Shown: in pieces, positions 23,302-42,278 of the stretch | Position numbering within the stretch: the stretch's first letter is position 1 | How the letters are laid out: each line of letters begins with the position of its first letter | NCBI RefSeq assembly: GCF_014837245.1 | Contig: NZ_JACYFU010000001.1 | Coordinates: 124,001-188,000 of the forward strand | Direction of reading: 5' to 3' | DNA length: 64,000 nt | Source of the DNA: Devosia oryzisoli | GTDB taxonomy: Bacteria; Pseudomonadota; Alphaproteobacteria; Rhizobiales; Devosiaceae | Made by a program: the position numbers and the translations under genes | Notes under the pieces: model-generated | What the model saw: only the letters and a program-made list of their open reading frames with translations | Database searches by the model: none | Told to the model about the DNA's origin: nothing

Positions 23302-24575
<1,274 letters not shown>

Positions 24576-24576
<1 letters not shown>

Positions 24577-24668
24577 AAAAAAAGGCCCCGCCCGAGGGGA
24601 TGGGCGGGGCCAGGGGTCTACGGCAAAGCCGCTGACCTTGGAGGAGGGGGCTCCACGGGGCCGCCTTC
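24576..24668 (-). ncRNA. Anti-Shine-Dalgarno small RNA, unit A
   Basis: Minus-strand transcript of about 93 nt inferred from a promoter (-10 AATAGT at 24675-24680, -35 TTGTGG at 24698-24703, 17-bp spacer) and a terminator GGCCCCGCCC/GGGCGGGGCC followed by eight T. It contains CCCCCTCCTCC (24640-24650), perfectly complementary to the Shine-Dalgarno-binding site logic of CUCCU anti-SD RNAs such as the cuckoo/CcsR and alpha-r14 (NfeR1) groups. The most diverged of the four units. The 5' end is an estimate. Confidence 0.65.
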
Positions 24669-24674
24669 GTGAGC

Positions 24675-24732
24675 ACTATTGCGCGCCGCAGCGGGCGCCA
24701 CAAACGCCACTTTGACAGGGCTGCCATGCACG
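24675..24732 (-). promoter_or_regulatory. Promoter and upstream element of sRNA unit A
   Basis: -10 AATAGT and -35 TTGTGG, read on the minus strand, are 17 bp apart. The 18-bp upstream element (24715-24732) begins 12 positions from the -35 edge, exactly as in the other units; it keeps TGCATGG but has changed in its other half. Confidence 0.6.
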
Positions 24733-24749
24733 AATGCAGGGGCATGGGC

Positions 24750-24944
24750 AAAAAAAGAGGCTCCAACCGAAGTTGGAGCCTTAATGATAGGGCCGAAGCC
24801 AAATCGAAGTAAGGGCCTGGGAGCAAGGGAGGAGGATTTGCTCCAGGCCGTGGACCCTGGCCGAGGGAGGAGGATACGGCCACAGTCCGATGCCGGGCAA
24901 CGCGGGTCCGAGGGAGGAGGAAACGGAGCGGCGTCGCATCGACA
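24750..24944 (-). ncRNA. Anti-Shine-Dalgarno small RNA, unit B
   Basis: About 195 nt on the minus strand. Three CCTCCTCCC motifs (plus-strand GGGAGGAGGA at 24827-24836, 24865-24874 and 24912-24921) are each placed in the loop of a hairpin: GGCCTGGAGCAA/TTGCTCCCAGGCC around the first, GGCCG/CGGCC around the second, TCCG/CGGA around the third. A terminator GGCTCCAAC-TTCG-GTTGGAGCC with seven T ends it at 24750. The three-loop layout is that of alpha-r14/NfeR1 RNAs of rhizobia. Its last 61 bases match unit C at 60 positions. Confidence 0.8.
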
Positions 24945-24950
24945 GGTACA

Positions 24951-25008
24951 CATATAGAATTTGACCGTTTGGTCAGCAATGGGTGGAACGACATGACAGC
25001 TATGCAAT
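24951..25008 (-). promoter_or_regulatory. Promoter and upstream element of sRNA unit B
   Basis: On the minus strand: -35 TTGCTG (24974-24979), 17-bp spacer, -10 TATATG (24951-24956). The upstream element ATTGCATAGCTGTCATGT lies at 24991-25008 and contains a T-N11-A frame. The spacer holds a dyad, TTGACC-GTTT-GGTCAG at 24961-24976, found in this unit only. Confidence 0.75.
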
Positions 25009-25077
25009 AGGCACAGCGGCAAACTGTCCACCAAATGGGCAATCCGACAGGCTCGCGACAGGTTCCGGCGAAGGGCC

Positions 25078-25272
25078 AAAAAAAGAGGCTCCAACCGAAG
25101 TTGGAGCCTTATTGATAGGGCCGAAGCCAAATCGAAGTCTGGCAGAGAGCAGGGAGGAGGAATTGCGCTCTGCCGGGTGAGCCGCCGGTCGAGGGAGGAG
25201 GAGAAGACCTTGGGCTCGGTGTCGCGATGCGGGGTCCGAAGGGAGGAGGAGATCGGAGCGCGCCTCAGCGAC
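25078..25272 (-). ncRNA. Anti-Shine-Dalgarno small RNA, unit C
   Basis: About 195 nt, a duplicate of unit B. Three CCTCCTCCC motifs (plus-strand 25152-25160, 25193-25201 and 25241-25249) lie in hairpin loops; the stem around the first is GGCAGAG/CTCTGCC. The terminator is the same GGCTCCAAC stem with seven T at 25078-25084. The 3' 61 bases are almost identical to B, while the outer loops' stems differ in sequence but keep pairing, the pattern expected of selection on structure. Confidence 0.8.
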
Positions 25273-25278
25273 GGCGCC

Positions 25279-25336
25279 CTTATGAACTCTACTGACTTGG
25301 TCGGCAATAAAAAACGGCACATGCCAGCCATGCAAT
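25279..25336 (-). promoter_or_regulatory. Promoter and upstream element of sRNA unit C
   Basis: -35 TTGCCG (25302-25307), 17-bp spacer, -10 CATAAG (25279-25284). The upstream element ATTGCATGGCTGGCATGT occupies 25319-25336, the best-preserved copy; its T-N11-A core (25322-25334) carries TGC and GCA half-sites as in LysR-type boxes, centred about 56 bp before the predicted start. Confidence 0.75.
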
Positions 25337-25364
25337 ATTGTCGCAGCCTAGTAGCCGGCAGCCG

Positions 25365-25479
25365 AAAAAAAACGGCTTCGCCCGAGGGGAGGGCGAAGCC
25401 GTTAAAGGGAGCGGGCACGGAGCCCGCCAGGAGGGAACGCAGCGGAAGCAAGGGAGGGAGGAGAAACATCCGCTGTGCT
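25365..25479 (-). ncRNA. Anti-Shine-Dalgarno small RNA, unit D
   Basis: About 115 nt on the minus strand. A CTCCTCCCTCCC motif (plus-strand 25452-25463) lies in a loop closed by GCGGA/TCCGC; a second, CCCTCC at 25430-25435, precedes a GGCGGGCTCCGTGCCCGC hairpin. The terminator ACGGCTTCGCCC/GGGCGAAGCCGT ends in eight T at 25365-25372. Different in sequence from B and C, but with the same promoter spacing, upstream element and motif. Confidence 0.75.
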
Positions 25480-25485
25480 GAGGGG

Positions 25486-25543
25486 CATATAGGCTGCGTC
25501 GGGCGGGTCGCCAACCAGACATCGAGTATGCCAGCCATGCGTC
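25486..25543 (-). promoter_or_regulatory. Promoter and upstream element of sRNA unit D
   Basis: -35 TTGGCG (25509-25514), 17-bp spacer, -10 TATATG (25486-25491). The upstream element GACGCATGGCTGGCATAC lies at 25526-25543, at the same distance from the -35 as in the other three units. Confidence 0.75.
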
Positions 25544-25574: not shown

Positions 25575-26279
25575 TCAGCGATGTTGCAGGTCGAGGAGGT
25601 GGGGCGGCAACTGACCCAGATGCTCCAGACGGGCGTAACGCGGGTGATCGGCCGGTTCCTCGGCATGCTCGTAGGACCAGGTGAGATCGTGCGGCACGTA
25701 GACGGCGAAGGCGCCGGCCTCGAGGGCCGGGATGATGTCGGAGCGGAGCGAGTTGCCCACCATGACCGTGTGACCTGCCCCTTCGGTGTGCTGGCTGAAA
25801 ATCCGCTCATAGGCCGCGCGCGTCTTGTCCGAGACGATTTCGATGGCCGCGAAATATTCGGCGAGGCCTGATGCGGCGACCTTGCGCTCCTGGTCGAACA
25901 CGTCGCCCTTGGTGACGAGAATCAGCCGGTAGCGGTCCTGCAGGTCTCCGAGAGCCTGATCGACATAGGGCAGCGTCTCGATGGGGTAGGACAGGAGCTC
26001 GCGCCCGGCGGCCAGGATTTCCGCGATCACCCGCCCGGGAACCCGATGCTCGGTGACCTCAAGGGCGGTTTCGACCATGGAGAGGGCAAACCCCTTCATG
26101 CCGAAGCCATAGAAGGACAGGTTGCGCGTGACGCTCGCGATCAGGCGGTCCTTGAGATCGGGAATGTCGGTGTAGTCCGCCAAAAGATCGGCGAAGCGCT
26201 GCTCGGTGAGGCGGAAGAAATGCTCGTTCTGCCAGAGCGTGTCATCGGCATCGAAGGCAATGGTGGTGATGCGCGGCAA
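25575..26279 (-). CDS. HAD family hydrolase
   Basis: 234 residues from a TTG at 26279 with GGGAG 9 bases upstream; the longer frame to 26384 would overlap the neighbouring lsrB-like gene and lacks character. HAD motif I is TIAFDADDTLW (nucleophile aspartate), motif II ILVTKGD, motif III/IV MVGNSLRSDIIPALEAG. An all-helical cap (FADLLADYTDIPDLKDRL) lies between. Acts on a small phosphate ester; substrate unknown. The sRNA cluster begins directly after its stop. Confidence 0.85.
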   Translation of the reverse strand: MPRITTIAFDADDTLWQNEHFFRLTEQRFADLLADYTDIPDLKDRLIASVTRNLSFYGFGMKGFALSMVETALEVTEHRVPGRVIAEILAAGRELLSYPIETLPYVDQALGDLQDRYRLILVTKGDVFDQERKVAASGLAEYFAAIEIVSDKTRAAYERIFSQHTEGAGHTVMVGNSLRSDIIPALEAGAFAVYVPHDLTWSYEHAEEPADHPRYARLEHLGQLPPHLLDLQHR

Positions 26280-26367
26280 GACCAATGGCTCCCGGATATG
26301 CTGACGCCAAGACCGTCCTGGGGCGGTTGGCCCGCCCCGGATCGCCCCCGGCGACTTTCCTAGTCGG

Positions 26368-27261
26368 CTAGAAGCTCCACTCACGGGCCTTGGCGACCAG
26401 GAAGTCGCGGAAGACGCCGACGCGCTTGGAGTTCTTGAGCGCTGGCGGATAGACGAAATAGGCTTCGTAGGCGGGCGTTTCGATCTCGGGGAGCACGCGG
26501 ATCAGATCTTCCTGCCGCTCGGTCACGTAATCGGGGAGCATGGCGATGCCGATGCCCGCCTGGCAGGCCTGCAGCATGCCGTAGATGGCGTTGACCTTGA
26601 GGACAGCGCGGCGCGGCGAGGATTCGGTGCGGCCGACGCGCTCGAGATAGTTGATGTCGCCGAGATAAGACGGAACCGGCTCGCCGAAGCTGACGATGCG
26701 GTGCTCGTCGAGGTCATCGGCGCTCTTGGGCATGCCGTGCTCCTCGATATAGCTGTTGCTGGCGTAGAAATGGTTGTGGACGGTGAACAGCTTGCGCTGG
26801 ATCATCTCGGACTGGTTCGGGCGGTGCAGCCGGATGGCGACGTCGGCCTCGCGCATGGCCAGGTCGAGTTCGGCGTCGTTGAGGCGCACTTCGAGCTGGA
26901 TCAGCGGATAGAGCTTGATGAACTCCTCGAGGCGCGAGCTAAGCCAGGCCGAACCGATGCCCACCGTGGTGGTGACGATCAGGGGACCGGTCGGGACGTC
27001 CTGGCTTTCGGACATCTGGGTCTCGACCTGCTGGAGCTCCCAGTGCATGCGGTGGGCCGTGCGGAACAACTGCTCGCCGACCTCGGTGAGGACAAGCCCG
27101 CGCGCGTGGCGGATGAAGAGCTTGAGCCCCAGATCATCTTCGAGCGCAGAAATCTGCCGGCTGACGGCGGACTGGCTCATGCCCAGCTTTTCGGCCGCGT
27201 GGGTGAAACTGCCCGACTCGGCGGCGGTGTGGAAAATCCGGAGCTTGTCCCAGTCGAGCAT
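26368..27261 (-). CDS. lsrB: LysR family regulator, LsrB-like
   Basis: 297 residues. The HTH is MLDWDKLRIFHTAAESGSFTHAAE with SQSAVSRQISALEDDLGLKLF. The effector domain contains stretches I recognise from LsrB of Sinorhizobium: SEMIQRKLFTVHNHFYA, HRIVSFGEPVPSYLGDINYLE, GIGIAMLPDYV and FRDFLVAKAREW. As in rhizobia, it lies immediately beside trxB. LsrB is known there as a redox-responsive regulator involved in symbiosis, glutathione and envelope functions. Here it is also the nearest regulator to the four sRNAs carrying LysR-type boxes. The symbol is by resemblance and context. Confidence 0.85.
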   Translation of the reverse strand: MLDWDKLRIFHTAAESGSFTHAAEKLGMSQSAVSRQISALEDDLGLKLFIRHARGLVLTEVGEQLFRTAHRMHWELQQVETQMSESQDVPTGPLIVTTTVGIGSAWLSSRLEEFIKLYPLIQLEVRLNDAELDLAMREADVAIRLHRPNQSEMIQRKLFTVHNHFYASNSYIEEHGMPKSADDLDEHRIVSFGEPVPSYLGDINYLERVGRTESSPRRAVLKVNAIYGMLQACQAGIGIAMLPDYVTERQEDLIRVLPEIETPAYEAYFVYPPALKNSKRVGVFRDFLVAKAREWSF

Positions 27262-27376: not shown

Positions 27377-28327
27377 TTACTCCGCTGCTTCTGCCAGTTC
27401 GTGTTCGGCAAGGTAGCGCTCTGCGTCGAGCGCCGCCATGCAGCCCATGCCCGCCGCCGTTACCGCCTGGCGATAGACATCGTCGGTGACGTCCCCGGCC
27501 GCAAAGACGCCGGGGATGTTGGTTTCGGTGGAGCCGGGCTTCACCTGCAGATAGCCGCCGGGCTTCATGTCGAGCTTGCCGGCGAAGATGGATGTCGCGG
27601 GGGCGTGGCCGATGGCGACGAAGACGCCGTCGATGGGCTGCTCATAGACGCGGCCCGTGACGTTGTCCTTGAGCGTCACGGCATTGACCGAAGGCGGCAT
27701 GGGCGAGCCGTTGACTTCGACGACCTCGTGGTTCCAGCGTACTTCGATCTTGGGATTCTTGAACAGGCGCTCCTGCAGGATGCGCTCGGCGCGGAACTCG
27801 TCGCGGCGGTGCACCACGATGACCTTCTCGGCGAAGTTAGTGAGAAAGAGCGCCTCCTCGACGGCCGTATTGCCGCCGCCGACCACCAGCACCTGCTTGC
27901 CGCGGTAGAAGAAGCCGTCGCACGTGGCGCAGGCGGAAACCCCGAACCCCTGGAACTTCTGCTCCGAGGGCAGGCCCAGCCACTTCGCCTGGGCGCCTGT
28001 CGCGATGATGATGCTGTCGGCGGTATAGGTGTCGCCACTGTCGCCCGTGAGTATGAAGGGGCGGCGGTCGAAATCGACGTGGGTGATGATGTCGGAGACC
28101 ATGCGCGTGCCGACGTGCTCGGCCTGCGCCTTCATCTGCTCCATCAGCCAGGGGCCCTGGATGACATCGGCAAAGCCGGGGTAGTTTTCGACGTCGGTGG
28201 TGATGGTCAATTGGCCACCGGGCTGCAGCCCGTGGATCATGACCGGTTCAAGCATCGCGCGGGCGGCATAGATGGCGGCGGTGTAGCCGGCCGGGCCGGA
28301 GCCGATGATGATGACTTTGGCGTGCAT
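27377..28327 (-). CDS. trxB: Thioredoxin-disulfide reductase
   Basis: 316 residues. FAD-binding GSGPAGYTAAIYAARA at the N-terminus, the redox-active pair CATC at residues 133-136, the NADPH-binding VVGGGNTAVEEALFL and the C-terminal FAD motif GVFAAGDVTDD are all present. Reduces thioredoxin with NADPH. Normal length. Upstream of lsrB on the same strand with a 115-base gap. Confidence 0.97.
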   Translation of the reverse strand: MHAKVIIIGSGPAGYTAAIYAARAMLEPVMIHGLQPGGQLTITTDVENYPGFADVIQGPWLMEQMKAQAEHVGTRMVSDIITHVDFDRRPFILTGDSGDTYTADSIIIATGAQAKWLGLPSEQKFQGFGVSACATCDGFFYRGKQVLVVGGGNTAVEEALFLTNFAEKVIVVHRRDEFRAERILQERLFKNPKIEVRWNHEVVEVNGSPMPPSVNAVTLKDNVTGRVYEQPIDGVFVAIGHAPATSIFAGKLDMKPGGYLQVKPGSTETNIPGVFAAGDVTDDVYRQAVTAAGMGCMAALDAERYLAEHELAEAAE

Positions 28328-40720: not shown

Positions 40721-40904
40721 TTTCGGTTTCCCCATCCGTCCGTTCGAATGGGAAAGCGCAATGGCAAGCCATCCGTTGCCAGCCATTCCTGCATAGCTGC
40801 CATCATGGTTACCATTTGGTTCAAATTGTAGAGGAACGCCCCGAAACACAGGTTGTATGGGCTTAAGGAATGTCCGTTAGCGTACCTCCTGCGGGAGGAA
40901 CGGC

Positions 40905-42278
40905 ATGAACAGGCAGTCGGGCGTTTATCTATCGGAGGTTGTGGGGGCGCTGAGCTATGCTCTGGACATTACCGAGGGGCAGCCCGTGGGGCACAGCCTG
41001 CGCTGCTGCTGGATCGGGATGCATGTGGGGCAGCGGCTGGGGCTCAGCGAAAGCGAGCTCTCCGATCTCTACTACACGGTCCTGCTCAAGGATATCGGCT
41101 GCAGCTCGAATGCGGCGCGCATCTGCAGTCTCTATCTTGCCGATGACCTCGATTTCAAAGGCAACTACAAGAGCGTCGACACCAAGCTGCCCGAAATTCT
41201 CCGCTTTCTGATCGCCAACACAGCGCGCCAATCGGGGCTGGTGGAGCGGCTGCGCACCATGATCCATGTCGCGCGCAATGGCGGAGAGATTGCCCGCGAG
41301 CTGATCGACACGCGCTGCCATCGTGGGGCCGACATCGCCCGCAGCATGCGCTTTTCCGAGGCGGTGGCGCGGGGCATTCTCGACCTCGACGAGCATTGGG
41401 ATGGTTCGGGCCAGCCGCTGCGGCGGGCGGGCGAGGACATTTCGCTCTTTGCCCGCATTGCCCTCATGGCGCAGGTGATCGACGTGTTCTTCATGCGCGG
41501 GGGCGCGGCTGTGGCCGTGGCCGAGGCGCAGGACCGGGCCGGGCGCTGGTTCGATCCCCGTCTGGTTGCGATCGTGAGCCAGCTTGCGGACGACGCGGCC
41601 TTCTGGGCGACGCTGCTGGCCAACGACCTGCCCGAGCGTGTGGCTGCGCTGGAGCCGCCGGCGCTGATGCGGCAGGTCGACGAGGATTATCTGGACGACA
41701 TCGCCGCCGGATTTGCGCAGGTGGTGGATGCCAAGAGCCCGTTCACGGCCGGCCACAGCGATCGCGTCTCCCTGTTCGCCGACCTCATTGCCGAAGAGCT
41801 TGGCCATGCGCCGGAGCGGCGGCGGTGGCTCAAGCGCGCGGCGCTGCTGCATGACATCGGCAAGCTGGGCGTTTCCAACAGCGTGCTCGACAAGAACGGG
41901 CGGCTAGACGAGGACGAGTGGCGACAAATCCGCCGCCATCCCGAGCTGGGCCGCACGATCCTTTCCAAAATCTCGGTGTTCCACGACATGGCGCGGATTG
42001 CGGGGGATCACCATGAGCGGCTGGATGGCAAGGGCTATCCCTGCGCCATTGGCGGGAGCGATATCGACCTCGATACGCGCATTGTCACGGCTGCCGACAT
42101 CTTCGACGCCCTGACGGCCGACCGCCCCTACCGCAAGGCGATGAGCGTCCCGGAAGCCTTCGCCATCATGCGGGCCGATGTGGGGACGGCGCTCGATCCG
42201 GTGGTGCTGGCGGCGCTGGAGTGCGGCTTTGCCCGGCTGCATGGCGTCGCGGCGGAGGGGGCGGACCAAGCTGCCTAA
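40905..42278 (+). CDS. HD-GYP domain protein with degenerate N-terminal HD-like domain
   Basis: 457 residues. The C-terminal HD-GYP domain (about 275-440) has the HD pair in AALLHDIGKLGVSN (about 316) and the GYP signature HHERLDGKGYP (about 369-379), plus the conserved TAADIFDALTADRPYR. Such domains hydrolyse c-di-GMP. The N-terminal half resembles a second, degenerate unit: DLYYTVLLKDIGCSS replaces HD with KD, and LDEHWDGSGQP mimics the GYP region. The product may be an active phosphodiesterase with a regulatory pseudo-domain. The stop overlaps that of the converging methyltransferase by 4 bases. Confidence 0.85.
   Translation: MNRQSGVYLSEVVGALSYALDITEGQPVGHSLRCCWIGMHVGQRLGLSESELSDLYYTVLLKDIGCSSNAARICSLYLADDLDFKGNYKSVDTKLPEILRFLIANTARQSGLVERLRTMIHVARNGGEIARELIDTRCHRGADIARSMRFSEAVARGILDLDEHWDGSGQPLRRAGEDISLFARIALMAQVIDVFFMRGGAAVAVAEAQDRAGRWFDPRLVAIVSQLADDAAFWATLLANDLPERVAALEPPALMRQVDEDYLDDIAAGFAQVVDAKSPFTAGHSDRVSLFADLIAEELGHAPERRRWLKRAALLHDIGKLGVSNSVLDKNGRLDEDEWRQIRRHPELGRTILSKISVFHDMARIAGDHHERLDGKGYPCAIGGSDIDLDTRIVTAADIFDALTADRPYRKAMSVPEAFAIMRADVGTALDPVVLAALECGFARLHGVAAEGADQAA

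Follow-up and report, generated by a model that had tools for sequence, protein, structure and literature searches.

The minus strand of the window analyzed here (the whole 64,000-nucleotide stretch of Devosia oryzisoli DNA) carries between positions 25540 and 24576 an array of four sRNA units, termed A to D, which can be read directly from the sequence. The array is a conserved locus of predicted sRNAs and most likely a variant of the known anti-Shine-Dalgarno (anti-SD) RNA systems under LsrB control. We consider it likely that it comprises four independently transcribed sRNA genes in tandem, activated by LsrB, the products of which mask Shine-Dalgarno sites. The anatomy of the units, selection at the RNA level, a fixed box spacing and the linkage to lsrB are observed directly in the loci compared. 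The shared upstream box and the likely regulator are the main clue to function and are absent from the first-pass annotation of this DNA, which had proposed four autonomous anti-SD sRNA units, a proposal supported by the anatomy.

The first-pass annotation also gave the units a shared promoter design and U-tailed terminators, and both are borne out, with the T runs ending at 25365 (A), 25078 (B), 24750 (C) and 24576 (D) and with exactly 17 bp between the −35 and −10 elements of all four units. The promoters, each on the minus strand, are TTGGCG-N17-TATATG for unit A (25486–25514), TTGCCG-N17-CATAAG for unit B (25279–25307), TTGCTG-N17-TATATG for unit C (24951–24979) and TTGTGG-N17-AATAGT for unit D (24675–24703). 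The 17-bp spacer of the first three is kept in relatives, being found in 34 of 35 promoter-pattern matches among 47 A units, in 43 of 43 among 51 B units and in 51 of 51 among 51 C units, and a like pair is seen by eye in the regions upstream of D in relatives. A scan of the region for E. coli-type promoters found none. Seven terminator-like sites occur between 24200 and 26000 compared with a mean of 1.5 in shuffled sequences, and all four unit terminators are among them. Transcription starts are assumed to lie 7 nt past the −10 element in every unit. In the relatives compared, the B promoters keep a CATAT-type −10 element and the C promoters keep a dyad, TGACC-N4-GGTCA, which in the window is placed across the −35 element and spacer (24975–24962, minus strand). 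The dyad resembles an operator.

Upstream of the promoters, units A, B and C each have an exact LsrB/VtlR-type box, GCAT-N3-TG-N3-T, at one fixed spacing of −61 to −49 from the assumed start. The boxes are GCATGGCTGGCAT for unit A (25528–25540), a match at 25321–25333 for unit B and GCATAGCTGTCAT for unit C (24993–25005), all on the minus strand. Unit D has at the same spacing a degenerate box, GCATGGCAGCCCT (24717–24729, minus strand, with TGCATGGCAGC at 24730–24720), in which AG replaces the consensus TG, and this replacement is common to the four other D units of relatives whose upstream regions were compared. An NtrC-type pattern, TGC-N11-GCA, has a single match on the minus strand between 24500 and 25700 (24738–24722), which overlaps the box of D and was not counted as evidence. 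The consensus is the one proposed for VtlR/LsrB in Brucella and Agrobacterium (PMC7486931), and in Sinorhizobium the abcR1 promoter, which LsrB activates, is reported to have the box at −61 to −49 (PMC8844928). The exact pattern GCATNNCTGNCAT occurs four times in the window, three of these in the array, with 0.11 expected. A box score of at least 9 out of 11 at the fixed distance is reached by 45 of 47 A units and 117 of 118 triple-motif units compared with 14 of 2000 random positions. When up to one mismatch is allowed, the whole genome has 327 matches to GCATNNCTGNCAT compared with 66 for the reversed control, so single box hits carry little meaning.

Exact copies of GCATGGCTGGCAT are also found outside the array in loci L007, L015 and L006. 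Those in L007 and L015 look, in our reading, like paralogous coding sequence, and the copy in L006 (1501–1513) is located about 150 bp upstream of a small gene that is CsbD-like by eye. An exact box, GCATAGCTGCCAT, lies elsewhere in the window (40791–40803, plus strand) about 110 bp before a 457-amino acid open frame starting at 40905, which is HD-domain-like by eye and a possible additional LsrB target.

The lsrB gene (26371–27261, minus strand) is the second gene upstream of the array and encodes a LysR-type regulator with Pfam HTH_1 and LysR_substrate matches, an LsrB/VtlR orthologue and presumed activator. It directly follows trxB (27380–28327, minus strand), a thioredoxin reductase gene that matches TIGR01292 with 411 bits, above the cut-off, and this tandem position after trxB is the one reported for lsrB/vtlR (PMC7486931). 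A HAD-family hydrolase gene (25575–26384, minus strand) is placed between lsrB and the array, with no match to it in several Devosia loci or in any of the 19 fetched loci of other families. LsrB matches occur at 85–92% identity in 35 of 36 same-genus genomes (two being partial) and at 48–59% identity in 20 of 24 genomes of other families, with trxB located beside lsrB in 16 of the 19 fetched other-family loci. In five of these 19 (L096, L098, L105, L106 and L114) an exact box is present within 400 bases after lsrB, and near-match boxes are seen by eye in further ones. The genome has 14 other LysR matches to the LsrB query, all of them weaker, and the consensus of the box comes from Brucella and Agrobacterium (PMC7486931), which leaves room for the box belonging to another LysR-type protein with the lsrB adjacency reflecting ancestral linkage only. 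We regard this as rather unlikely, as the spacing equals that at PabcR1 (PMC8844928), the helix-turn-helix of the window protein is 65–78% identical to those of 11 orthologues, some with an exact box just downstream, and the linkage to lsrB is kept over the family.

The RNA units, all on the minus strand and numbered from the assumed starts, are of three kinds. Unit A (25365–25479) has one loop with CTCCTCCCTCCC, a GTTCCCTCC motif, and a terminator, and is AbcR-like by position. Units B (25078–25272) and C (24750–24944) each present CCTCCTCCC in three hairpin loops followed by a terminator, with the motifs located at 25249–25241, 25201–25193 and 25160–25152 in B and at 24920–24912, 24873–24865 and 24835–24827 in C. 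Unit D (24576–24668) contains the core CTCCAAGGTCAG at 24643–24632, a hairpin and a terminator, and the core is the part of D conserved in relatives. The window holds seven copies of CCTCCTCCC, six of them inside B and C, with 1.33 expected. The CTCCTCC of D lies outside any hairpin loop and is not its conserved core; the earlier placement of the motifs in hairpin loops consequently stands for A, with one loop, and for B and C, with three each, and falls for D.

Single-sequence folding gives z-scores of −8.5 for A and −2.6 for D with the terminator included, and of −1.7 for B and −6.0 for C with the terminator left out. The fold of B alone is therefore unremarkable and it is the comparative evidence that is striking. 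In an alignment of 38 units (the two window rows and 36 of 71 non-redundant triple units, from 116), the stems that carry CCUCCUCCC in the three loops of B and the three of C covary, with 94.9% of cells in standard pairs compared with 78.4% in shuffled and 25.6–48.4% in slid controls, and with two-sided changes in 20 of 27 base pairs. Column identity is 0.992 in the motif and 0.654 in the stem. For unit A (the window row and 28 of 29 non-redundant units, from 46, the divergent L184 being left out), 91.7% of cells are paired compared with 84.7% in shuffles, hairpin 1, which was placed by hand, reaches 81.7%, and the 22 further pair types compare with 20.1 in shuffles, 74 of 500 of which also reach 22. 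RNAalifold on unit A found nothing but the terminator. Selection at the RNA level is strong in B/C and weaker in A. The alignment of D comprises 16 hand-chosen rows, some of them partial. The sequence TCCCCTC is present in the terminator loops of A (25390–25384) and D (24600–24594), is kept in nearly all rows reaching it and may be an additional site of pairing.

Long open frames cross the region and it contains four terminators, features that would also fit leaders or attenuators acting in cis, or leftover coding sequence. The aminotransferase gene aat (class I/II, aspartate-type; 23374–24573, plus strand) is convergent with the array, so no sense gene lies directly downstream for the units to be leaders of, and the stem pairs co-vary although segment lengths shift, making this reading very improbable. 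A second alternative to sRNAs that mask ribosome sites is a sponge, with the RNAs mainly sequestering a protein or another RNA. In keeping with it, each RNA has many identical loops, the conservation of which far exceeds that of the stems. Opposing this, the anti-SD motif mimics the 3′ end of 16S rRNA. Also, mRNA translation is the reported point of action of NfeR1, an RNA with three similar motifs (PMC8844928), and a sponge is accordingly judged unlikely.

The masking of Shine-Dalgarno sites under LsrB control is the most likely function, and from comparison with the characterized systems we infer transcription, LsrB binding, an inducing signal, targets and repression. LsrB (VtlR) would bind the box (GCAT-N3-TG-N3-T) in front of each unit, at −61 to −49, and bring RNA polymerase to the housekeeping-type promoter, with the degenerate box of D predicted to give a weaker or different response to LsrB. 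The transcripts would display their C-rich anti-SD sequences in hairpin loops (one in A and three each in B and C), and pairing of these loops with the Shine-Dalgarno regions of target mRNAs would block ribosome binding, which is also how NfeR1 and AbcR work in Sinorhizobium. LsrB of Sinorhizobium meliloti is reported as an activator of both AbcR1 and NfeR1, and NfeR1 is reported to inhibit translation through three anti-SD motifs (PMC8844928). The analysis also drew on PMC10746234 and PMC10253847.

The synteny set consists of 80 loci and the window, of which 69 (68 and the window) reach aat; five of the 12 that do not reach it are without a unit and end 34–2546 bases after lsrB. Downstream of lsrB, CTCCTCC occurs several times in each of the 35 fetched same-genus loci. 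Of the 69 syntenic loci, 49 have two or more triple-motif units and 20 have fewer, the distribution being three units in one locus, two in 48, one in 14 and none in six, and the exact core of D occurs in 26 of the 69. In the 69 syntenic intervals, the window's included, CCTCCTCCC is found 399 times in the sense orientation and 0 times in antisense, so that the loop motifs are conserved in related genomes as the first-pass annotation had anticipated. The units were detected by CTCCTCC, and this part of the motif conservation is therefore inflated and partly built in, which does not apply to the box spacing or the stem covariation. The linkage to lsrB and the fixed box spacing extend across Devosiaceae. 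The unit-A model has matches in 110 of 121 genomes of the family and the B/C model in 66 of 397 genomes of the order, with scores of at least 75 bits confined to this family and none above 54 bits outside it. Seven genomes from one other family of the order (L218, L220–L224 and L226) show a different and much denser arrangement, with nine CTCCTCC sites in one stretch of about 330 bp and a box-like match some 315 bp ahead of the first of them.

In a tree of the 96 units of those 48 loci that have exactly two triple units, B separates from C, with the B/C label changing four times (at least three being forced) compared with about 32 in shuffles. The C units of 33 loci group together with support (100/96), and the Pelagibacterium group likewise has one set of B units and one of C units. 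The pattern is broken by Arsenicitalea (L153) and two Devosia loci (L149 and L151), which have B units among C. B and C are old and mostly separately conserved paralogs, and together with the different promoter spacers this suggests that the two are controlled differently, more than that copy number sets a dose. The earlier description of the locus as dose-tuned repression is not upheld for this reason.

At gathering scores, no Rfam family is found in the window, and none in another 16 loci, of which five are from Devosia. A permissive search with ar14 (RF02344) gives 36.2 bits on C (E 8.3e-5) and 27.3–30.1 bits on B, with the gathering score of 58.8 not reached by either, and the best match of CcsR1 (RF02791) is 28.4 bits on C compared with a gathering score of 65.3. 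The covariance search that had been proposed for these models thus stays below gathering throughout, and of the suggested kinship with alpha-r14/NfeR1 and CcsR what is left is a sub-threshold similarity of B and C, A not being ar14-like. Unit A matches ar15 (RF02345) with 21.2 bits (E 0.11; threshold 40), which is at chance level. This model scores another place in the genome higher, at 23.6 bits, and with E up to 1 allowed it has matches in eight of the 14 control genomes as well, and ar15 membership of A is therefore not claimed. The positive controls behave as expected of family members, with L105, from another family, having two ar15 RNAs of 127 and 119 bits directly after lsrB, and L219 and L225 having ar14 RNAs of 113.7 and 106.4 bits, each with three motif sites and an LsrB-type box. 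The unit-A model matches the L105 RNAs with 25.3 and 24.1 bits, which is not specific, since the window's own B, C and D score 31–36 with it. A single hairpin with CCTCCTCCC in its loop is located in L197 near 1585 (reverse complement; G000:C6:741653-741764), just after a gene resembling a transporter binding protein by eye, and matches the ar14 model with 26.4 bits.

NfeR1/alpha-r14 has the anti-SD motif three times per RNA and an LsrB-type box upstream (PMC8844928), and box and spacing are likewise present at the promoters of the ar14-like units B and C. These differ from NfeR1 in their greater length, in having each of the three motifs within a covarying hairpin ahead of the terminator, and in forming two paralogs beside lsrB that score under the Rfam threshold; B and C would work in the manner of NfeR1 and are probably its remote kin. 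Unit A holds the AbcR position, being beside lsrB with an LsrB box (the HAD gene intervening in the window), and shares with AbcR-like RNAs a GTTCCC that follows hairpin 1 and is present in 10 of the 11 rows aligned. AbcR1/AbcR2 (alpha-r15) are also tandem sRNAs adjoining lsrB, with the abcR1 box at −61 to −49 (PMC8844928), whereas the C-rich loop of unit A is longer and the three units behind it are of different kinds, D being a separate one. Agrobacterium AbcR1 and VrsA, which are activated by VtlR, have the same regulator family and the same box (PMC7486931), but lie at separate loci, in contrast to the box-bearing units of Devosia in one array.

The resemblance to the CcsR1–4 (cuckoo) RNAs of Rhodobacter sphaeroides lies in several CCUCCUCCC hairpin RNAs in a row, four in both cases, and in the CcsR1 match on C. 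A locus of that type would give one long transcript from a heat-shock sigma factor promoter, processed by RNase E, and would be accompanied by a DUF1127 RNA-binding protein, as described for CcsR1–4, which share a transcript with ccaF1 that starts at an RpoHI/RpoHII promoter. In the array every unit comes with a box (degenerate in D), a promoter and a terminator of its own, the 17-bp spacers are kept, the CcsR1 score is far under 65.3, and none of the seven DUF1127 matches in the genome is near the array. A CcsR-type locus is accordingly improbable, and separately transcribed units under LsrB remain the preferred reading.

The window LsrB has a single cysteine, Cys-233, and valines at positions 141 and 270. 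The A. tumefaciens protein has four cysteines, with Cys-144 and Cys-273 reported as conserved in S. meliloti and Brucella abortus and Cys-273 as important for function (PMC11975290). Equivalents of Cys-144 and Cys-273 are absent from the window LsrB, the equivalence to positions 141 and 270 having been drawn through L105 rather than the A. tumefaciens sequence. Of 11 other-family LsrB proteins only that of L105 has cysteines at 141, 241 and 270. Among 60 LsrB proteins (from those of the 80 loci long enough and read in frame), with positions counted without alignment, none has a cysteine at 141 or 270 and 42 have Cys-233. As the redox cysteines are absent here, the signal known from Rhizobiaceae may not apply, and redox control as described for LsrB may not be general.

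The presence of similar arrays at the same place in most relatives examined suggests one control hub for RNAs that lie apart in other bacteria, and the interest of the locus is the consolidation of such RNAs beside their likely regulator. No such array was found in the open-licence literature searched under Devosia. More tentatively, and as a reading less likely than not, it can be proposed that Devosiaceae have consolidated at lsrB the AbcR and NfeR1 genes that are separate in Rhizobiaceae, duplicated them and extended them by the new RNA D. The product would be an anti-ribosome module made multivalent by seven or more C-rich loops, in which the two triple-loop paralogs are set apart by operator-like spacers and an LsrB without redox cysteines answers a different signal. 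In rhizobia, AbcR and NfeR1 govern the uptake of nutrients and the interaction with the host (PMC8844928). In soil bacteria such as Devosia the locus is a clean system for asking why near-identical anti-SD RNAs stay side by side, and is suited to asking how loop number affects repression and what LsrB senses without the known redox cysteines. Rfam thresholds miss these RNAs in the loci tested.

Candidate targets were sought from the ribosome site side. The pattern GGGAGGAGG-N6-ATG is found at one place in the genome, as is its reversed control, and GGGAGGAG-N(4–10)-ATG at 24 compared with three for the reversed control, which is as expected of ribosome sites generally. Eight of the 24 open frames after GGGAGGAG sites reach 200 amino acids, with at least that of L248 not protein-like. 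Two of the frames look by eye like ABC transporter parts, an ATPase (L245) and a binding protein (L246). ABC transporters are a target class known for AbcR, and these candidates are a lead rather than a result. At L262 (near 1401) and L263 (reverse complement, near 1398) the sequence TGCA-N6-GCAT is located about 100 bp upstream of the domain in two of the genome's DUF1127 genes, and VtlR acts on such small proteins in relatives.
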